Under the pieces are notes generated by a model. It was not told where the DNA came from. It saw only the letters and a list, made by a program, of their open reading frames with translations, and searched no databases. The translations under genes and the position numbers were made by a program. From positions 1 through 49,728 of the forward strand of contig JASHOL010000469.1 of the NCBI GenBank assembly GCA_030041135.1: a stretch of 49,728 nucleotides of DNA, read 5' to 3'. Shown in pieces: positions 34,793-49,586 of the stretch (its first letter is position 1; every line of letters begins with the position of its first letter). Origin of the DNA: Streptosporangiaceae bacterium (GTDB lineage Bacteria; Actinomycetota; Actinomycetes; Streptosporangiales; Streptosporangiaceae).

Positions 34793-36319
<1,527 letters not shown>

Positions 36320-36360
36320 TTACTGCCCTTGCTGGCGCTCGCGGAGTTCTCGCCGCCCAG

Positions 36361-36366
36361 TACCAT
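36361..36366 (+). promoter_or_regulatory. -10 box of a probable leaderless NYN-gene promoter
   Basis: TACCAT lies 7 bases before the ATG at 36374 with no ribosome site between. This selects 36374 rather than the ORF-track start at 36314. Confidence 0.4.
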
Positions 36367-36373
36367 CCCTGGC

Positions 36374-37168
36374 ATGGAAGACAGCCTGGGCAGCGAGAGC
36401 GCCGCGAAGCTCGCCGTGCTCATCGACGCCGACAACACGCGGCCCTCCGTCATCGAAGGCCTGCTGGCCGAGGTCGCCAAGTTCGGGACCGCGACCGTCA
36501 AGCGCGCCTACGGCGACTGGACCGGAACCCAGCTGCGCGGGTGGAAGGATCAGCTGCTGGCCCAGTCCATCCAGCCGATCCAGCAGTTTGCCTACACCAG
36601 CGGCAAGAACGCCACGGACGCGGCCATGGTCATCGATGCGATGGACCTGCTGTACTCGGGGCGCTTCGACGGGTTCTGCCTCGTCTCTAGCGACAGTGAC
36701 TTTACCCGCCTGGCGGCTCGGATTCGCGAGTCAGGGCTGACCGTGTACGGATTCGGCGAGCGCAAGACGCCCAAGCCATTCGTCGCCGCCTGCGACAAGT
36801 TCATTTACATCGAGAACCTTGCCTATCACGAGGACGCGGCCGTGCACGAGGACGCCGCCCTGAAGCCGACCCCGCGCCTGTCCGCGGCGAAGCTGAAGCG
36901 AGACGCCGCGCTGGTCACCATGCTCCGCAACGCCGTTGAGGCGGCGTCTGACGACGACGGCTGGGCGGTGCTGGCGTCGGTCGGACACATCCTCACCGAG
37001 CAGCGCCCGGACTTCGACTCTCGCAACTACGGCTACGCCAAGCTCAGCGACCTGATGGCCGCCACCACGCTGTTCGAACTGGAACGCCGCAGCCCGGGCG
37101 ACGGCAAGCCGGCGATCATCTACGTTCAGGACAACCGCCTCCGCCCGGCCAAGAGATCGTCAAGATAG
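36374..37168 (+). CDS. NYN-domain (PIN-like) ribonuclease with C-terminal OST-HTH domain
   Basis: A 264-residue protein. The NYN/LabA-like domain shows the acidic site residues in VLIDADN, KNATDAAMVIDAMDLL and LVSSDSDFTRLA, and the family signature ERKTPKPFVAACDKFIYIENL. From about residue 165 to the end is an OST-HTH/LOTUS-like winged helix (LRNAVEAASDDDGWAVLASVGHIL; YGYAKLSDLMAAT). NYN proteins are predicted metal-dependent RNases, and LOTUS domains bind RNA, including G-rich RNA. It is transcribed divergently from guaB1 with a 147-base gap. Confidence 0.88.
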   Translation: MEDSLGSESAAKLAVLIDADNTRPSVIEGLLAEVAKFGTATVKRAYGDWTGTQLRGWKDQLLAQSIQPIQQFAYTSGKNATDAAMVIDAMDLLYSGRFDGFCLVSSDSDFTRLAARIRESGLTVYGFGERKTPKPFVAACDKFIYIENLAYHEDAAVHEDAALKPTPRLSAAKLKRDAALVTMLRNAVEAASDDDGWAVLASVGHILTEQRPDFDSRNYGYAKLSDLMAATTLFELERRSPGDGKPAIIYVQDNRLRPAKRSSR

Positions 37169-42201: not shown

Positions 42202-42286
42202 CGGCTCCTGGCCCCGTGCCGGCCGATGGTTCTACCGCGCGGGGCTGGCGGTAAAACCCGCGTCCGGTCCCTGGTTGGATGGGGGG

Positions 42287-43405
42287 ATGGCCGGTTACGA
42301 CGCGTTCCTGCTTGTGTCCTTCGGCGGTCCCGAGGGGCCGGACGATGTCATCCCGTTCCTGCACAACGTCACGGCCGGCCGGGGAGTGCCGCCCGAGCGC
42401 CTGGCCCAGGTCGCCGAGCACTACTACCAGTTCGGCGGGGTCAGCCCGATCAACCAGCAGTGCCGCGACCTGCTCGCGGCGCTCGAGAAGGAGTTCGCCG
42501 CGACCGGGATCTGCTTGCCGGTCTACTGGGGTAACCGGAACTGGCGGCCGTACCTCACCGACACGATGCGGCAGATGGCAGCCGACGGGGTGACTCGCGC
42601 GCTCGCACTCGTCACGTCCGCGTACAGTTCGTTCTCCAGCTGCCGGCAGTACCTTGATGACATCGAGGCAGCCCGCGTGGCCGTCGGGCCGGCCGCCCCG
42701 CAGGTTGACAAGCTCAGGCAGTTCTTCAACCATCCCGGCTTTATCGAGCCGAACGCCGACGCCGTGGCCGCGGCGGCCAGCTCGCTCGGGCCGGCCGCCG
42801 CCGGGACCTGGGACCTGGTATTTACCGCGCACAGCATCCCGCTCGGGATGTCGCAGGCCAGCGGGCCGCCAGGCGGGCCGTGGCCGACGGGAGCCGGCGG
42901 CCCGGCCGGAGGTGCGTACCCAGCGCAGCTCGCCGACGCGGCCGGCCTGGTTGCTTCGCTCGTGGACTACGACCGTCCCTGGCGGCTGGCCTACAACAGC
43001 CGCAGCGGGCCGCCCTCGGTCCCGTGGCTCGAGCCCGACATCAACGACTGCCTGAAGGAGCTGGCGGCATCCGGATCGCAGGCCGTGGTCGTGTCACCGG
43101 TCGGCTTCGTCAGCGATCACATGGAGGTCATATTCGACCTGGACGTGGAGGCCGCGCAGACGGCGCAGCGGCTCGGTCTCCAGTTCGCCAGGGCGGCCAC
43201 GGCAGGGACCGACCCGCGGTTCGTGTCCATGATCGCCGACCTGGTACGCGAGCGGACCGACGCTGCGACCCCGGCCGCGCTTGGCAGCTTCGGCGTCGGG
43301 CCGGACTCCTGCCCGCCCGGGTGCTGCGGCCAGGGCGCCCGACGTCCCGCGGGCGGACCCGGGGGATCGCCCGCCCAGGCTGAACCGGCAGGGGGACTGC
43401 GGTGA
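42287..43405 (+). CDS. cpfC: Coproporphyrin III ferrochelatase
   Basis: A 372-residue ferrochelatase that inserts Fe2+ into coproporphyrin III in the actinobacterial haem route. LLVSFGGPEGPDDVIPFL opens the protein; the metal-site H182 is in FTAHSIP and E280 in VSDHMEVIFDLD. A Gly/Pro-rich loop (about 190-210) is inserted after the active-site His. C342, C346 and C347 in SCPPGCC are candidates for the [2Fe-2S] ligands known in actinobacterial homologues. The ORF track begins at 41933, but the ATG at 42287 has a G-rich ribosome site and begins at homology. Confidence 0.93.
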   Translation: MAGYDAFLLVSFGGPEGPDDVIPFLHNVTAGRGVPPERLAQVAEHYYQFGGVSPINQQCRDLLAALEKEFAATGICLPVYWGNRNWRPYLTDTMRQMAADGVTRALALVTSAYSSFSSCRQYLDDIEAARVAVGPAAPQVDKLRQFFNHPGFIEPNADAVAAAASSLGPAAAGTWDLVFTAHSIPLGMSQASGPPGGPWPTGAGGPAGGAYPAQLADAAGLVASLVDYDRPWRLAYNSRSGPPSVPWLEPDINDCLKELAASGSQAVVVSPVGFVSDHMEVIFDLDVEAAQTAQRLGLQFARAATAGTDPRFVSMIADLVRERTDAATPAALGSFGVGPDSCPPGCCGQGARRPAGGPGGSPAQAEPAGGLR

Positions 43406-44223
43406 CACCGGATCCGGCCGAGCTTCTTGAGCTCGCCTCGGCCGCGGCCGAGGAGGCGGCCGAGTTGCTGCTGAGCCGGCACGGTGACGTGCGAGTCGTC
43501 GAGACCAAGTCGAGCCCGACCGACGTCGTGACCGAGATGGACGGCGCGGCCGAGGAGCTGATCAGGCACCGGATCCTCGCCGACCGGCCGGGCGATGCGA
43601 TCCTCGGCGAAGAAGGCGGCCAGACCGGTGCCGGCAGCCAGGTGCGCTGGATCGTGGACCCGCTCGACGGCACGGTGAACTACCTCTACGGGCTGCCCGA
43701 GTGGGCGGTGAGCATCGCGGCCGAGGTCTCCGGCACCGTAGTGGCCGGAGTCGTCTGCGCCCCGCTGCAGCGCAACACGTATAAGGCCGCGATCGGCCGG
43801 GGCGCGTGGCTGCATTCGGGCTGGCAGCCCGAACCGGTCCCCCTGTCGTGCAACACCGGCATAGATCTAGCCGACGCGCTGGTGGCTACGGGCTTCAGCT
43901 ACTCGGCCGCGCAGCGCGCGGGGCAAGGCTCGGTGGTCGCGCAGTTGCTGCCGCGAGTGCGCGACATCAGGCGCGCGGGCGCCGCGGCGATCGATCTGTG
44001 CTCGCTGGCGGCCGGCCGGGTAGACGCGTACTACGAGAGCGGCGTCTACTACTGGGACGTCGCGGCCGGCAGCCTGATCGCGCGGGAGGCCGGCGCACAC
44101 GTCGGCGGCCTGCACGGACACGACGCCGGTCCGGCCCTCACGCTGGCCGCGAGCCCGGCCCTGTTCGGGCCGTTGCACGATCTGCTGGCCGGCCTGTGGA
44201 CCGCAACGGCGGCGGGAACCTAG
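43402..44223 (+). CDS. Inositol monophosphatase family protein
   Basis: A 273-residue Mg-dependent phosphatase. The metal-site motifs are ILGEEGG, WIVDPLDGTVNYLYGLP and, near the end, YYWDVAAGSLIAREAGAHVGG. Members hydrolyse inositol phosphate, histidinol phosphate or related sugars. Its GTG start overlaps the cpfC stop by 4 bases (GTGA), so the two are co-translated, although no metabolic link is obvious. Its stop codon overlaps that of the convergent pseudokinase gene (CTAG). Confidence 0.92.
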   Translation: MTPDPAELLELASAAAEEAAELLLSRHGDVRVVETKSSPTDVVTEMDGAAEELIRHRILADRPGDAILGEEGGQTGAGSQVRWIVDPLDGTVNYLYGLPEWAVSIAAEVSGTVVAGVVCAPLQRNTYKAAIGRGAWLHSGWQPEPVPLSCNTGIDLADALVATGFSYSAAQRAGQGSVVAQLLPRVRDIRRAGAAAIDLCSLAAGRVDAYYESGVYYWDVAAGSLIAREAGAHVGGLHGHDAGPALTLAASPALFGPLHDLLAGLWTATAAGT

Positions 44224-45842
44224 GTCCTGCTCAGGGTGCCACTCGCGGGCTGCCCCGATGAGCTGAAGTTGAACTGGACCGAGCTGGACCCGGACTTGGT
44301 CAGGGTCACCGTGCCCGGCAGGCACGGCCCAGAAGAAATGGTCTGGCTCAGGGTTAGCTGCTTCGCGGTCTGAGTCTCAACGCTCAGCGCGCCCGTACAG
44401 CTCAGGTTGCTCGACGAGTAGCTGATCGAGCCGCGGTTGTGCCCCGCGGCTAGGCTGACGGTCACGTTGTAGCTGCTGCCGGGCTGCGAGACAAGGCCCG
44501 CCCAGCTGCCCGCGAACGCCGACGGTGTGACCGCCGTCGGCGTTGGGCTCGCCGTGGGTGACCTGGGAGTCGCCGACGCACTGGGGTCCTTCAGGTTGCC
44601 GTTGGCCGCGCCGTGCGTAGTCCCGGTGTTCTGCACGAGGTGCACGACGAGCAGGGCCAGCAGCGCGCAGACCAGAACGCCCCCGGCGATCAGGACCTGC
44701 CCGGCCCGGCGGCGGCCAAGCGACTGCTGGTGTGCGCCGTGCCGCTCCTGCGCCAGCCCTGGCGCGTGGGCGGTCGCCCGATGAATGTCGTCCGCGCGCC
44801 CGCGCCCGCTGGGGATCGGGCGCGGGCCGGTGCTGCGAGCCGTCGGCGGTCGCCCGCCAGCATGGGCTTCGGCCGGCCGGATCGGCCTCGGCCCGGTAGC
44901 GCGCGAACCGGTCGCGTGGATGCCCGCCGGCCTCGGGCCGCTCGGCCGGTCGATCACCGGCCGGCCTGGCGGTTGCCGGTCCGTGCCCTCGCGCTCGCCC
45001 GCTTCGCCCCAGGTTCGCCGCTCGGCCGAGGGCCAAGGCAACCCAGGGCCCGCCTGGGCCAACAGGTCATCATCCTGCGTGGCCCTCGGGTCTCCGCCAG
45101 GGACGGCACGGCGTGACCCCTCCGCGAGCACGCCCGCCGGCGGGTCCCGGTCACCGATCAACGCGATTACCGCGGCCCGCGCCGTCGGCCGGTCGATGGG
45201 GTTGGTGGTCAGGCACTCGATCACGACATCGCGCACGTGCGCGGGCAAGACATCGAGGTCGCCGATGGTTGTGGGCGGCTTGCCCGACGCCGCGAATACG
45301 ACCGTCTGCGCCCACGCGGTCATGTCTGCCGCCGGGGTGGACGCGCCGTAGGGCGGGGTTATGCCGAACTCGACGACACGCGGTCCGGCTACGGTCATGA
45401 TCACGTATTCGGGGCCGAAGTTGCCATGGACCAGGCCCGCGAGATGGATCGAGGCCAGCCCCGTCGCCATGCCGATGGCAGCCGCCTCAAGCTCGGGGCC
45501 GTCCAGGATGCCGTCGGTGGCGATGACCTCCATCAGGGATTCGCCTGGCACGTATTCGCTGATCAGGAATGCATCGTCGCCGTCCATGCCGGCGTCGAGG
45601 ATCCGCGCCGCGCAGAACGGCGGCACGCGCTTGGCGACAGCGGCCTCGGCCGCGAAGCGGTCCCGGGCGGCGGCATCCCTGGTCCACTCGCTGTGCAGGA
45701 CGCTGATGGTGACGTCGGAGCCGTCGGGTCCGGTGCCCAGGTAGATGGGTCCCTCGGCCGGGATCCCAGCGATCCGCGCCACAAGCCGGTAGCGGCCAAC
45801 CCGCCTTGGGTCGCCGGTCTGAAGCGGCGATTGGTGAGGCAT
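44220..45842 (-). CDS. Transmembrane pseudokinase of the PknB type
   Basis: A 540-residue protein. Residues 17-260 have a Ser/Thr-kinase-like fold, but the beta-3 strand reads VTISVLHSEW with no lysine, the catalytic loop reads LVHGNFGPEYV instead of HRDLKPxN, and the metal motif reads VVEFG instead of DFG. Catalysis is therefore improbable. An Arg/Pro/Gly-rich cytoplasmic linker (about 265-390) leads to one helix (VLIAGGVLVCALLALLVVHLV) and a 100-residue Ser/Thr-rich extracellular domain with two Cys (LSCTGALS; GPCLPGT). The ORF begins at 45899, but MPHQSPLQTG (45842) follows GGAG. Probably a signalling scaffold. Confidence 0.85.
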   Translation of the reverse strand: MPHQSPLQTGDPRRVGRYRLVARIAGIPAEGPIYLGTGPDGSDVTISVLHSEWTRDAAARDRFAAEAAVAKRVPPFCAARILDAGMDGDDAFLISEYVPGESLMEVIATDGILDGPELEAAAIGMATGLASIHLAGLVHGNFGPEYVIMTVAGPRVVEFGITPPYGASTPAADMTAWAQTVVFAASGKPPTTIGDLDVLPAHVRDVVIECLTTNPIDRPTARAAVIALIGDRDPPAGVLAEGSRRAVPGGDPRATQDDDLLAQAGPGLPWPSAERRTWGEAGEREGTDRQPPGRPVIDRPSGPRPAGIHATGSRATGPRPIRPAEAHAGGRPPTARSTGPRPIPSGRGRADDIHRATAHAPGLAQERHGAHQQSLGRRRAGQVLIAGGVLVCALLALLVVHLVQNTGTTHGAANGNLKDPSASATPRSPTASPTPTAVTPSAFAGSWAGLVSQPGSSYNVTVSLAAGHNRGSISYSSSNLSCTGALSVETQTAKQLTLSQTISSGPCLPGTVTLTKSGSSSVQFNFSSSGQPASGTLSRT

Positions 45843-46174
45843 GGCGCAAGCTCCGGGCGTGGGCGTGCACAGTGGAACTCGTTGTGCGGTTCGCACCATA
45901 ACGCACTATGTGAAAGACACTGTGCTGAATCGACTAAGTTACTCCAAAGTAGATCGGGCTGCCAGCAAATCGGCGGATCCCGGTGGGCCGAATGCCCAGG
46001 TACGGTGGGGAGGCCCTGCGGGCCGAGAGCGACACGCCTTGCCTCGCTAGCGATGGTTGGTGTACCGCGACCCTGGACGTGGCAGAATTCCCCGCCGGAT
46101 TCGGGCACAACCGAGGCCTCCCGAGCGTTACAACCGCGCGAACGGGTTAGTGAGATGGAGGGGTTAGAGCCGAG
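45843..46174. other. Divergent intergenic region between pseudokinase and DUF4193 genes
   Basis: About 330 bases without a supported gene. Its middle (45900-45960) is less GC-rich than the surroundings and could hold the promoters. A TACGGT at 46012-46017 on the plus strand is a candidate -10 for the DUF4193 gene, giving a roughly 150-base leader. Confidence 0.45.
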
Positions 46175-46474
46175 ATGGCTACCGATTACGACAGCCCGAG
46201 GAAGACAGACGACGAGCTGACCGAGGACAGCCTGCAGGAACTGCAGGCGCGCCGGATGGACAAGTCCTCGACGGCGATTGACATCGACCCCGATGACATC
46301 GCCGAGTCGCTTGAACTGCCGGGGGCTGATCTCTCGAATGAGGAGCTCTCGTTCCGGGTGATCCCACGGCAGGCGGACGAGTTCACCTGCTCGAGCTGTT
46401 TCCTTGTGCATCACCGCAGCCAGCTTGCCGAGACTCGCGGCGGTCAGATGGTCTGCCGGGAGTGCGCCGCCTGA
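46175..46474 (+). CDS. DUF4193 family protein
   Basis: A 99-residue actinobacterial protein with an acidic N-terminal half (DYDSPRKTDDELTEDSLQEL) and a C-terminal zinc-ribbon-like pair FTCSSCFLVHHRSQL and MVCRECAA (CxxC...CxxC). The family is restricted to actinobacteria and resembles small RNA-polymerase-associated or regulatory zinc proteins, but its role is not established. GGAGGGG lies upstream of the ATG. Confidence 0.9.
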   Translation: MATDYDSPRKTDDELTEDSLQELQARRMDKSSTAIDIDPDDIAESLELPGADLSNEELSFRVIPRQADEFTCSSCFLVHHRSQLAETRGGQMVCRECAA

Positions 46475-46676: not shown

Positions 46677-47546
46677 TCATCTTCGGCGCGCCGCGGCCAT
46701 GGTCCGCAGCAGGCGCCCTCTCGGTCCCGGCACTCGGCGCACCCGGCTCCAGATGCGGCCGGCCACCGCGGCCCCGACCAGCCCCGCGACAATCGCGAAC
46801 GGCGCCAGCCCGGCGAGAGCCAGTCCGGCGGTGCACCCGGCCAGCGCCGTCAGTAGCGTTCCCCAGGCCAGGAGGGTCAGCCCGACCCTAGTGAGCGCGA
46901 CCTCGGCGTTCTGGCCGAACAGGCTGTTCGCCGGCGCGGAGCGGACTGCCTGCAGGAAGTAGCCCGCCGCCGCCAGGGCGTCGCGACCGCGCAGGCTGAT
47001 CAGGCCGAGCTCGTTCACGGCCCCCGCGTTGGCCGGGTCGATTGCCAGCGCCGCCTGCTGGCTGGCCCTGGCCCCATCCAGGTCACCGACAGCCAGTGCC
47101 ACCTTCCCGGCCGTCACGTGCACATCTGGTTCTCCCGGCGCGATCGCGAGCGCCGCGGCGCTGGCCTGGCGGGCCAGTTCCGGCTGCCCGGCCGCCACCG
47201 CGGCTTGCGCCAGGCAGATGTGGGACCGCCAGCAGTGCGGGGCGAGGTTGAGCGCGGGGACCGCGGCGGCGAGGGCGTCATCGGCCCGGCCGAGGCCGAG
47301 CAGCGCGGTGCTGGCCAGGCGGTATGGCCAGTCATCGGCCGGGTCGAGTTCGCTGGCGCGACGAGCCGCCTGCACGGCCGCCGCCTCGTTCCCCCCGGCT
47401 AGCTGCGCACGCGAAAGCAGGCACCACGCCCGGCCGCTGTCCGGGGTAATCGCCACGGCCGCGGTGAGGACGCGAACGGCGTCGGTGAACCGGCCAAGCT
47501 CGATCATCGTGCCTGCCCGGCTGAGGTCGGCCGGCGAGCCCGTCAT
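46677..47546 (-). CDS. Membrane-anchored TPR protein, partner of the AAA ATPase
   Basis: A 289-residue protein. Residues about 1-210 are TPR units (AVAITPDSGRAWCLLSRAQLAGG; ASELDPADDWPYRLASTALLGLG; LAIDPANAGAVNELGLISLRG), and about 215-265 hold two membrane helices (LTLLAWGTLLTALAGCTAGLAL; FAIVAGLVGAAVAGRIW) followed by a basic tail. It starts 16 bases after the AAA gene's stop, on the same strand, so the two form an operon. It could dock the ATPase or its clients at the membrane (inference). Confidence 0.82.
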   Translation of the reverse strand: MTGSPADLSRAGTMIELGRFTDAVRVLTAAVAITPDSGRAWCLLSRAQLAGGNEAAAVQAARRASELDPADDWPYRLASTALLGLGRADDALAAAVPALNLAPHCWRSHICLAQAAVAAGQPELARQASAAALAIAPGEPDVHVTAGKVALAVGDLDGARASQQAALAIDPANAGAVNELGLISLRGRDALAAAGYFLQAVRSAPANSLFGQNAEVALTRVGLTLLAWGTLLTALAGCTAGLALAGLAPFAIVAGLVGAAVAGRIWSRVRRVPGPRGRLLRTMAAARRR

Positions 47547-47562
47547 CGGGGCTGCCCGGCCG

Positions 47563-48969
47563 TCACAGCATCTTCCGGTGCTTCAGGTAGGCCGCCAGGT
47601 CGTCGTAGGCACCGCCCTCGTTGGCAAACAGCGCGACGTTGCGGGCCGAGTCGAACCAAGGGGCGAGCGACGGCCTGACCTGCGCCGTGGCCGCAGCCAG
47701 GTCGTCCTGCCCGATCATCCTCGCCTGGCCGGAACGGGCCGAGTCCAGCAGCGCCAGCTCGGCCGCGGACTCGCAGACGTGGGCGATGTCCGCGGCCGAG
47801 TAGCCCTCGGTCATGGCCGCCAGCTTGGCCAGGTTGATCCCGGCCACTGGCCGGTCCTTCAGGTGGAACCGGAACACCGCCTCGCGGGCCTGCGGGTCTG
47901 GCGGCAAGACCAGGAGCGTCCGGTCCAACCGGCCGGGCCGGCGCAGGGCGCTGTCGACGTCCCACGGGAGGTTGGTGGCGGCCAGCACGAATACGCCGTC
48001 GTTACCGCCGGTCACGTCGTCCAGCTCGAGCAGCAGCTGGTTGACGGCGCTGCGCATGGGCGTGTTCCGCAGCTGACTCCGCTTCTGGCCGATCGCGTCG
48101 ACTTCGTCGAAGAACAGCACGCATGGGGCGTTCCGCCGGGCGACGGCGAACAATTCATGGATATTCCGCTCACTCGACCCGATGTACATGTCCACCACGT
48201 CGGCGAACGAGACCGCGAGGAAGTGGGCGCCAAGCTCGCCCGCAACGGCGCGGGCGATGAACGTCTTGCCGCAGCCTGGAGGTCCGTAGAGTAGCAGCCC
48301 GCCGCGCAGGCTCTTGCCGTAAAGCCTGCGCAGCTCGGGATTGCGCATCGGGGCGAGGAACGCCGCCTCGAGCCTGGCCTTGACCTCATTCAGGCCGGCC
48401 ACGTCGGCCAGGCGCAGCCGTGGCTTCTCCGCGTCGTAGGCGGGAGCCTCCCTCTCGTGCTCGTAGGCGGCGGACCCGTCCTGGTTCACGAACATCGGCG
48501 GCAGCAGGTCCCGCAGTTCGGCCTCGGCCTGCGCCCAGTTGAAGCCGCCTGCCGCGGCCCCGCCTGCCGCGGGCTGGGCCGTATCCAGGGGCGGCGCGTG
48601 GTCCGCGGGCTGGGCCGTATCCAGGGGCGGCGCCTGGTCCGCGGGCTGGGCCGTGTCGAGGGGCGGCACCTGGTCCGCGGGCTGGGCCGTATCCAGGGGC
48701 GGCGCGTCCACAGGGGCCGGGACTCGAATCTCTCCTGCGGACGCAGGCTCCGACCCGGCTAGCTCGGCCCGGCCGACCTCGGCGAGCATGCGCAGCGCCT
48801 GGACATTCGCCGGGTCCGCCTGCAGCACCGCCCCGAGGTGGCTGATCCCTTCCTCGCGCAGACCGGCGGTCATGAGCATGCTGGCGAGGTGCAGGCGGAG
48901 GCCGAGGTCGTCGGGTAGAGCCGCGACCGCCTTGCGGAGGCTCGCGATCACGGCGGGCTCGGAATCCAT
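47563..48969 (-). CDS. TPR-AAA ATPase
   Basis: A 468-residue protein. Residues 1-75 look like a TPR pair; 89-136 are a 12-residue repeat; 185-440 are one classical AAA module: Walker A GPPGCGKT (229-236), Walker B CVLFFDE (283-289), sensor-1 Asn in AATNLP, arginine fingers in LRRPGRLDR and a pore-loop YIG (262-264). The YIG loop implies threading of a protein substrate through a hexamer. The C-terminus ends in a helical piece (YDDLAAYLKHRKML). It resembles the VCP/Vps4/FtsH-core group but has no protease domain. First gene of an operon with a membrane TPR protein. Confidence 0.88.
   Translation of the reverse strand: MDSEPAVIASLRKAVAALPDDLGLRLHLASMLMTAGLREEGISHLGAVLQADPANVQALRMLAEVGRAELAGSEPASAGEIRVPAPVDAPPLDTAQPADQVPPLDTAQPADQAPPLDTAQPADHAPPLDTAQPAAGGAAAGGFNWAQAEAELRDLLPPMFVNQDGSAAYEHEREAPAYDAEKPRLRLADVAGLNEVKARLEAAFLAPMRNPELRRLYGKSLRGGLLLYGPPGCGKTFIARAVAGELGAHFLAVSFADVVDMYIGSSERNIHELFAVARRNAPCVLFFDEVDAIGQKRSQLRNTPMRSAVNQLLLELDDVTGGNDGVFVLAATNLPWDVDSALRRPGRLDRTLLVLPPDPQAREAVFRFHLKDRPVAGINLAKLAAMTEGYSAADIAHVCESAAELALLDSARSGQARMIGQDDLAAATAQVRPSLAPWFDSARNVALFANEGGAYDDLAAYLKHRKML
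48562..48705 (-). repeat. Four tandem 36-bp in-frame repeats
   Basis: The units encode (A/V)PPLDTAQPAD(Q/H), four copies in a row within the ATPase linker (residues 89-136). Near-identity of the copies suggests recent expansion and a likely length polymorphism between strains. Confidence 0.85.
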
Positions 48970-49586
48970 CGGGCTAACCTCGGCGTAGTTCGGGTGGGCT
49001 CGGGCGAATGCCCAATTTTATGCGTGTTTGCCGGATGCCGGGCGTGGAACTATCGCATAGACCGATCGAGATGCGTCCCGGAGCCGTCATAAGCCGACGG
49101 AGCCGGCCGCCACCGGCCGCGCACCAGATGGCCCGCAACGACAGCAGAGGGTCAAGAGATGCTGCTCTTCGGCCTGTTGCAGTGTTGACGCGGTCGGGTG
49201 CAGTGGGCCCCGGCCGTCCGGCTGGGCCGGGCGGCGGTTTGATGCCCGGGCGTCCCGGCTGGGCCGGGCGGCGGTGTGACGCGGCGCCCGGTATGGCCGT
49301 CGGCTGGTCTCGGGGCGCCCGCACTGCCGCAGGCTGTCGGCATCGTGCAAGTTGTCGGGTGCATACCAGGTCAAAGCGACCGCGAAAGTGTGGAGAACTT
49401 ACACGATGCCGGAGAACTTACACGGCGGCGGACCCGCGCGGCCCCGGCCTGGTGCCTACCAGGGCGGCCGGAACTGCCGCTCCGCCTGAGCCGGGATCCC
49501 GGATCCTCGCAAGAGATCCTTAGCGATGGATAGCCGCGCCGGCCGATTCTGAAACAACCCGTCTTGAGGCGGCACGTTTACCTCTG
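48970..49586. other. Gene-poor region with two pairs of direct repeats
   Basis: Listed ORFs are low-complexity Arg/Pro/Gly frames without family features. Two direct repeats are seen: CCGGCTGGGCCGGGCGGCGGT at 49218-49238 and 49255-49275, and GGAGAACTTACACG at 49392-49405 and 49411-49424 (19-base period). The second pair may be a tandem protein-binding site. Confidence 0.5.

Follow-up and report, generated by a model that had tools for sequence, protein, structure and literature searches.

A conserved bacterial gene pair encoding a TPR-headed AAA ATPase and a TPR membrane protein, a putative protein segregase

The window analyzed here, a stretch of 49,728 nucleotides from a Streptosporangiaceae bacterium, carries on its minus strand the genes for a single-ring AAA ATPase with a TPR head and for a TPR protein with a predicted membrane hairpin. 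The pair is an uncharacterized and widespread AAA-TPR membrane module, found in at least eight phyla, rather than a new principle. We consider it probable, at roughly 60%, that the two proteins form a two-part, membrane-docked protein segregase consisting of a hexameric threading ATPase and a TPR membrane anchor or adaptor. To our knowledge, few protease-free AAA segregases docked at the membrane are known in bacteria, and a two-gene module whose threading motor is intact and which brings its own membrane partner is a candidate for a general bacterial counterpart of Cdc48/Msp1/Vps4-type extraction. Because the module is present in cultured hosts (Streptomyces, Micromonospora, Actinoplanes, Anaeromyxobacter, Brevibacillus and Actinomyces oris), it is directly testable. 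The features of the two genes are as follows.

47563..48969, minus strand: gene for the TPR-headed single-ring AAA ATPase (P0001), 468 aa
48754..48957, minus strand: N-terminal two-TPR helical head of the ATPase, residues 5-72 (AlphaFold2; Pfam TPR_20 weak)
48567..48705, minus strand: tandem repeat in the linker, 36 nt x 3.9, encoding a four-copy 12-aa repeat; lineage-specific
48490..48543, minus strand: short linker motif F(N/D)W(S/A)QAExELRDVLPxxF, residues 143-160 (from linker comparison)
48262..48285, minus strand: Walker A, GPPGCGKT, residues 229-236; invariant in family alignment A3
48178..48192, minus strand: pore loop 1, DMYIG, residues 260-264; aromatic-x-G in 126/135
48103..48108, minus strand: Walker B acidic pair, D288-E289; DE in 133/135
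47929..47943, minus strand: arginine-finger segment RRPGR, residues 343-347; R344 and R347 invariant in A3
47578..47658, minus strand: C-terminal signature WFxSARNxALFANEGGAYDDLAAYL, residues 438-464; diagnostic of the family
46677..47546, minus strand: partner gene (P0002), six-TPR protein with a C-terminal membrane hairpin, 289 aa
46938..47534, minus strand: TPR superhelix of the partner, residues 5-203 (model; Foldseek)
46737..46925, minus strand: predicted membrane hairpin of the partner, helices 208-244 and 248-270 (hydropathy and model)

Linkage of the ATPase and partner genes

In the window, the partner gene starts 16 nt downstream of the ATPase gene on the same strand. To follow this arrangement in other genomes, relatives were gathered by scanning species genomes and then by searching seven phyla with a profile (A2) made from the C-terminal tail only, and adjacency was counted over the 135 distinct family members for which 700 nt or more of sequence was available downstream. 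A partner-type gene was present on the same strand no more than 600 nt downstream in 112 of the 135, usually with a 4-nt overlap (often overlapping codons) or a gap of less than 30 nt. Such a gene followed 0 of 11 FtsH/proteasome-type AAA loci, and of 640 background frames on the same strand, 0 matched the partner profile. This profile was a TPR-based HMM derived from the window partner and its homologues at these same loci; therefore, the adjacency statistics, rather than its E-values, constitute the evidence. The spacing and the conserved adjacency suggest that the two genes form an operon. An earlier note on this DNA had named joint conservation of the genes as a check on their association, and given the observed adjacency, the objection that they are not conserved together fails.

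Apart from the pair itself, the flanking genes differed between loci, and an all-against-all comparison of flanking frames revealed no third conserved neighbor beyond close relatives. Streptomyces and Actinomyces plasmids carry the same gene pair in public annotation, where an "ATP-binding protein" or "AAA family ATPase" is followed by a "tetratricopeptide repeat protein" or "hypothetical protein." No adjacent partner was found for 23 of the 135 members (approximately 17%, or about one in six), most conspicuously in a branch from Myxococcota, and the paired or unpaired state switches approximately eight times on the ATPase tree. The existence of unpaired members indicates that the ATPase may work without a partner or with a distant one; it also speaks for the view that the two genes are merely co-transcribed and their products do no joint work. 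We regard that view as highly improbable, since adjacency maintained across at least eight phyla amid unrelated neighborhoods is hard to explain without a shared function.

In the literature searched, which mostly left out subscription journals and preprints, no functional study of the pair was found, and only PMC11237479 (mSystems 2024) mentions the pairing. That paper devotes one sentence to a bacterial "VPS4-like AAA+ ATPase" beside a gene for a protein with TPRs and six transmembrane (TM) segments, e.g., ACB74714.1; it regards the ATPase as Vps4-like and archaeal derived, and it gives no functional test. As worded there, the published pair is very probably of the same kind as the pair in the window. 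In both cases, the AAA gene of several bacterial lineages adjoins a gene whose TPR product has multiple TM segments; here, such adjacency was seen in the 112 paired members, with three to six TM segments predicted in many relatives, among them partners from Planctomycetota and Cyanobacteriota, and two in the window. Unlike in the description given by that paper, neither a beta domain nor an MIT domain was found in the family studied here, and p97 D2 is nearer.

Architecture of the ATPase and its place among AAA families

The ATPase is a classical AAA protein by its match to Pfam AAA (PF00004; 137.8 bits against a cut-off of 21.2), accompanied by AAA_lid_3; Pfam detected no peptidase domain in its 468 residues, as the earlier note had held, and no TM segment was predicted. 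The AlphaFold2 model, for which 42 family members were aligned, has a mean pLDDT of 82.6 and contains one AAA ring subunit with an all-helical C-terminal part. The TPR head that had been proposed from the sequence was borne out by a weak Pfam TPR match over residues 8 to 54 and by four modeled helices (residues 5-17, 22-34, 38-51 and 56-72) that form two TPR hairpins, with pLDDT values of 93 to 98 over residues 11 to 70. The linker that follows (approximately residues 76 to 175) is predicted to be disordered, with a short helix (145-153) in the region of the linker motif, which is common to close actinobacterial members. The repeat stretch within the linker has a pLDDT below 50. The four-copy, 12-residue repeat reported previously is real (93% matches across the copies) and is private to the source genome: it was absent even from L039, the nearest relative fetched (82% identical), and from other relatives. 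It is hence a local expansion of disordered linker sequence. It was therefore rejected as a functional element.

The catalytic and pore motifs are well maintained. Family alignment A3 showed Walker A, N333, R344 and R347 to be invariant; the Walker B DE pair was found in 133 of the 135 members and the arginine-finger motif in 128. The YIG pore loop, which had been read as a threading type, lies within DMYIG, and an equivalent W/Y/F-x-G was present in 126 members. Five members, L170 to L174, from the Cyanobacteriota sample and genomes of approximately 2 Mb, carry His in the pore loop (DMHVG) and retain the partner gene. A partner-less copy near the window clade (L011, L051 and L053) has Met in place of the aromatic residue (DSMLG) and may be a degenerate paralogue. 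The hallmark of the family is a unique C-terminal tail, WFxTARNxAxFANEGGAYDDL, which provides a simple handle for annotation.

In a tree with FtsH, the proteasome ATPase, p97 D1, p97 D2 and Vps4 as references, the ATPase family formed one clade (SH-aLRT of 98, by a quick method). The node joining it to a sister family had a support of 66 by the same method, and Vps4 and the proteasome ATPase were long branches; for Vps4 the reference was the AAA segment of the yeast protein, which agrees letter for letter with PDB 2rko. Among NCBIfam models, the ATPase scored 202.5 bits against CDC48 (cut-off, 802.65), 201.2 against FtsH (600), 183 against PAN (also far below its cut-off), 161.2 against CdvC (650), 120.6 against IetA (510) and 40.6 against EccA (466.65). 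The best solved sequence relatives were p97/Cdc48 D2 domains (176-bit domain), and the best fold matches of the model were p97 D2 crystal structures (TMt, 0.78 to 0.83). Indeed, the aromatic-x-G pore loop and the Walker and arginine motifs are shared with p97/Cdc48 D2; however, the ATPase has one ring instead of two, a TPR head takes the place of the p97 N domain, and the family has the unique C-terminal tail and a dedicated membrane TPR partner. The AAA module resembles that of FtsH to a comparable degree by score, yet the ATPase has no TM segment and no zinc metalloprotease (no peptidase M41 match), and it falls in a separate clade.

The resemblance to Vps4/CdvC lies in the succession of a small N-terminal helical domain, a flexible linker and a single AAA ring with the same aromatic-x-G type of pore loop. 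We therefore considered the possibility of ESCRT/Vps4-like remodeling, in which the ATPase would disassemble a membrane-bound polymer (e.g., of the PspA/Vipp1 type) and the TPR-TM protein would replace ESCRT-III as the platform. This anatomy speaks for it, as does PMC11237479, in which the snf7 neighbor of bacterial "VPS4-like" ATPases is replaced by a gene for a TPR protein with six TM segments and membrane-proximal action is proposed. We nevertheless judge it unlikely. The ATPase model had no strand of three or more residues after residue 353, where the pLDDT exceeds 90, and hence no Vps4 beta domain; in place of the three-helix MIT bundle there are the four helices of the two TPR hairpins, and Pfam returned no MIT match. 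Furthermore, p97 D2 was nearest by both sequence and fold, the CdvC score was below those of CDC48 and FtsH, the Vps4 branch was not firmly placed in the tree, and the flanks contained no conserved PspA/Snf7 neighbor that could stand for ESCRT-III.

EccA, like the ATPase, has an N-terminal TPR region and a C-terminal AAA domain; however, the EccA score fell far short of its cut-off, and no ESX gene was found among ten window neighbors scanned. ClpV and other HSP100 proteins are built with two rings and differ from the ATPase, which has a single AAA ring and no ClpV/HSP100 family among its Pfam or NCBIfam matches. Together, these results support the conclusion that the ATPase belongs to none of the named families Cdc48/p97, FtsH, Vps4/CdvC, EccA, ClpV and IetA, and that it looks built to act like a single-ring segregase. 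The earlier comparison with Vps4 and type VII/ClpV ATPases was thus right in that neither is matched, but the nearest relatives are the AAA modules of p97/Cdc48 D2 and of the FtsH type.

The membrane partner and a proposed mechanism

The partner gave strong Pfam matches of the TPR type only. In its model, which has a mean pLDDT of 91.9, six TPRs are followed by two long hydrophobic C-terminal helices and a short Arg-rich helix; Foldseek matched the superhelix to TPR superhelices of both designed and natural origin. An Arg-rich tail follows the hairpin, suggesting that the two termini of the protein, and hence the TPRs, lie on the cytosolic side. The two C-terminal helices described in the earlier note are indeed present in the window, but this form is particular to a close group: the nearest relative also has two membrane helices, whereas most relatives have three to six membrane segments by hydropathy, with up to six in Planctomycetota and Cyanobacteriota. 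In L058, L060 and L064 (Catenulispora and Actinacidiphila), the partner is a long TPR protein of approximately 615 aa with no predicted TM segment, so that anchoring may differ there. A three-gene version occurs in some loci from Pseudomonadota and Bacillota; L160, L161, L162 and L140 have a hydrophobic protein of approximately 140 to 180 aa encoded between the ATPase gene and a gene for a TPR protein with two TM segments. The intervening protein of L161, the one examined, had no Pfam match, and such proteins are possibly a third component of the machine in those loci.

The segregase reading draws on the gene linkage, the motor and pore motifs, the monophyly of the ATPase family, the predicted fold and the predicted membrane segments; from these we infer the hexamer, the contact between the two proteins, membrane recruitment, threading and the class of substrate. 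The hydrophobic gene inserted in some Pseudomonadota and Bacillota loci and a TonB C-terminal domain on one cyanobacterial partner likewise speak for a place at the membrane. The ATPase would assemble into one AAA ring, which by analogy with p97/Cdc48 D2 would be a hexamer; in it, the conserved aromatic-x-G pore loop may grip polypeptides so that the ring pulls them through its pore. Since no protease is attached or adjacent, substrates would be disassembled, extracted or refolded rather than degraded. The partner would hold its TPR superhelix in the cytosol on the membrane hairpin and, as anchor, adaptor or both, could recruit the ATPase to the inner membrane and present membrane-proximal substrates to it. 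Candidate contacts for the partner on the ATPase are the TPR head, the conserved linker motif and the conserved C-terminal tail. The partner, as the component with the predicted membrane anchor, probably recruits an ATP-driven motor. Counting against the segregase reading are the 23 unpaired members, the Catenulispora partners without a predicted TM segment, the loss of the pore aromatic residue in one unpaired member, its replacement by His in five members of the Cyanobacteriota sample, and the promiscuous binding of TPR proteins. The earlier idea of an uncharacterized membrane-linked remodeling machine stands insofar as the gene for a protease-free, threading-type AAA protein is linked to that for a membrane TPR protein. 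Tentatively, one may go further and see here a widespread and hitherto uncharacterized bacterial machine: an independent family of single-ring AAA proteins that has a membrane TPR receptor of its own and carries out p97/Msp1/Vps4-like extraction or remodeling at the bacterial membrane, in some lineages together with a hydrophobic protein as third component.

A role in membrane protein quality control or extraction, as for Msp1 or a protease-less FtsH, or as an energizer of envelope assembly or secretion, was also weighed. A membrane-docked AAA protein without a protease, with FtsH-type AAA modules among its closest profiles, is consistent with quality control, and an envelope function could be read from a cyanobacterial metagenome-assembled genome (MAG) in which the TM segments of one partner (L085:7330-8850) are followed by a TonB C-terminal domain (59.2 bits to Pfam TonB_2). 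However, the flanks showed no conserved gene for a substrate, for secretion or for the envelope, and we assign a low probability to these roles as separate explanations; they are in any case largely specializations of the segregase explanation and hardly exclusive alternatives.

Distribution and genomic context

Family members were found in Actinomycetota, Chloroflexota, Myxococcota, Planctomycetota, Cyanobacteriota, Bacillota, Pseudomonadota and Armatimonadota, the last represented by one MAG. Matches to the tail profile per genomes sampled, with each phylum sample including its own seed genome, numbered 5/198 in Actinomycetota, 10/151 in Chloroflexota, 17/141 in Myxococcota, 5/200 in Bacillota, 29/149 in Planctomycetota, 4/249 in Pseudomonadota and 13/117 in Cyanobacteriota. 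These patchy counts indicate that the module is accessory. The phyla are intermixed on the ATPase tree, a pattern compatible with horizontal transfer. An origin from phages was considered and rejected; phage records matched only FtsH-like AAA proteins at approximately 40%.

Because of the patchiness, which spans the low counts in Actinomycetota and Pseudomonadota and the highest in Planctomycetota, and because of plasmid carriage, a role in defense is possible, namely, that the pair is a two-gene accessory antiphage or conflict cassette like the AAA-containing IetAS system. IetAS is likewise a two-gene cassette with a classical AAA protein, and the IetA model matched the ATPase in part. That match, however, reached less than a quarter of the IetA cut-off, and the partner is a TPR-TM protein instead of the subtilisin-type protease IetS. 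Moreover, PADLOC run on 82 neighbor proteins gave a handful of scattered single or double matches, for which no formal background was computed, and hence no sign of a defense island, and the surroundings of the pair in the window are of a housekeeping kind. A defense role is accordingly rather improbable.

In the window, genes for a ferrochelatase, an inositol monophosphatase, a kinase-like protein and a DUF4193 protein (positions 42281-46471) flank the pair in an ordinary chromosomal context. A 37-nt direct repeat of 1.9 copies lies upstream of the ATPase gene (49209-49279), and, at positions 36314-37165, an NYN nuclease domain is fused to an OST-HTH/LOTUS domain.
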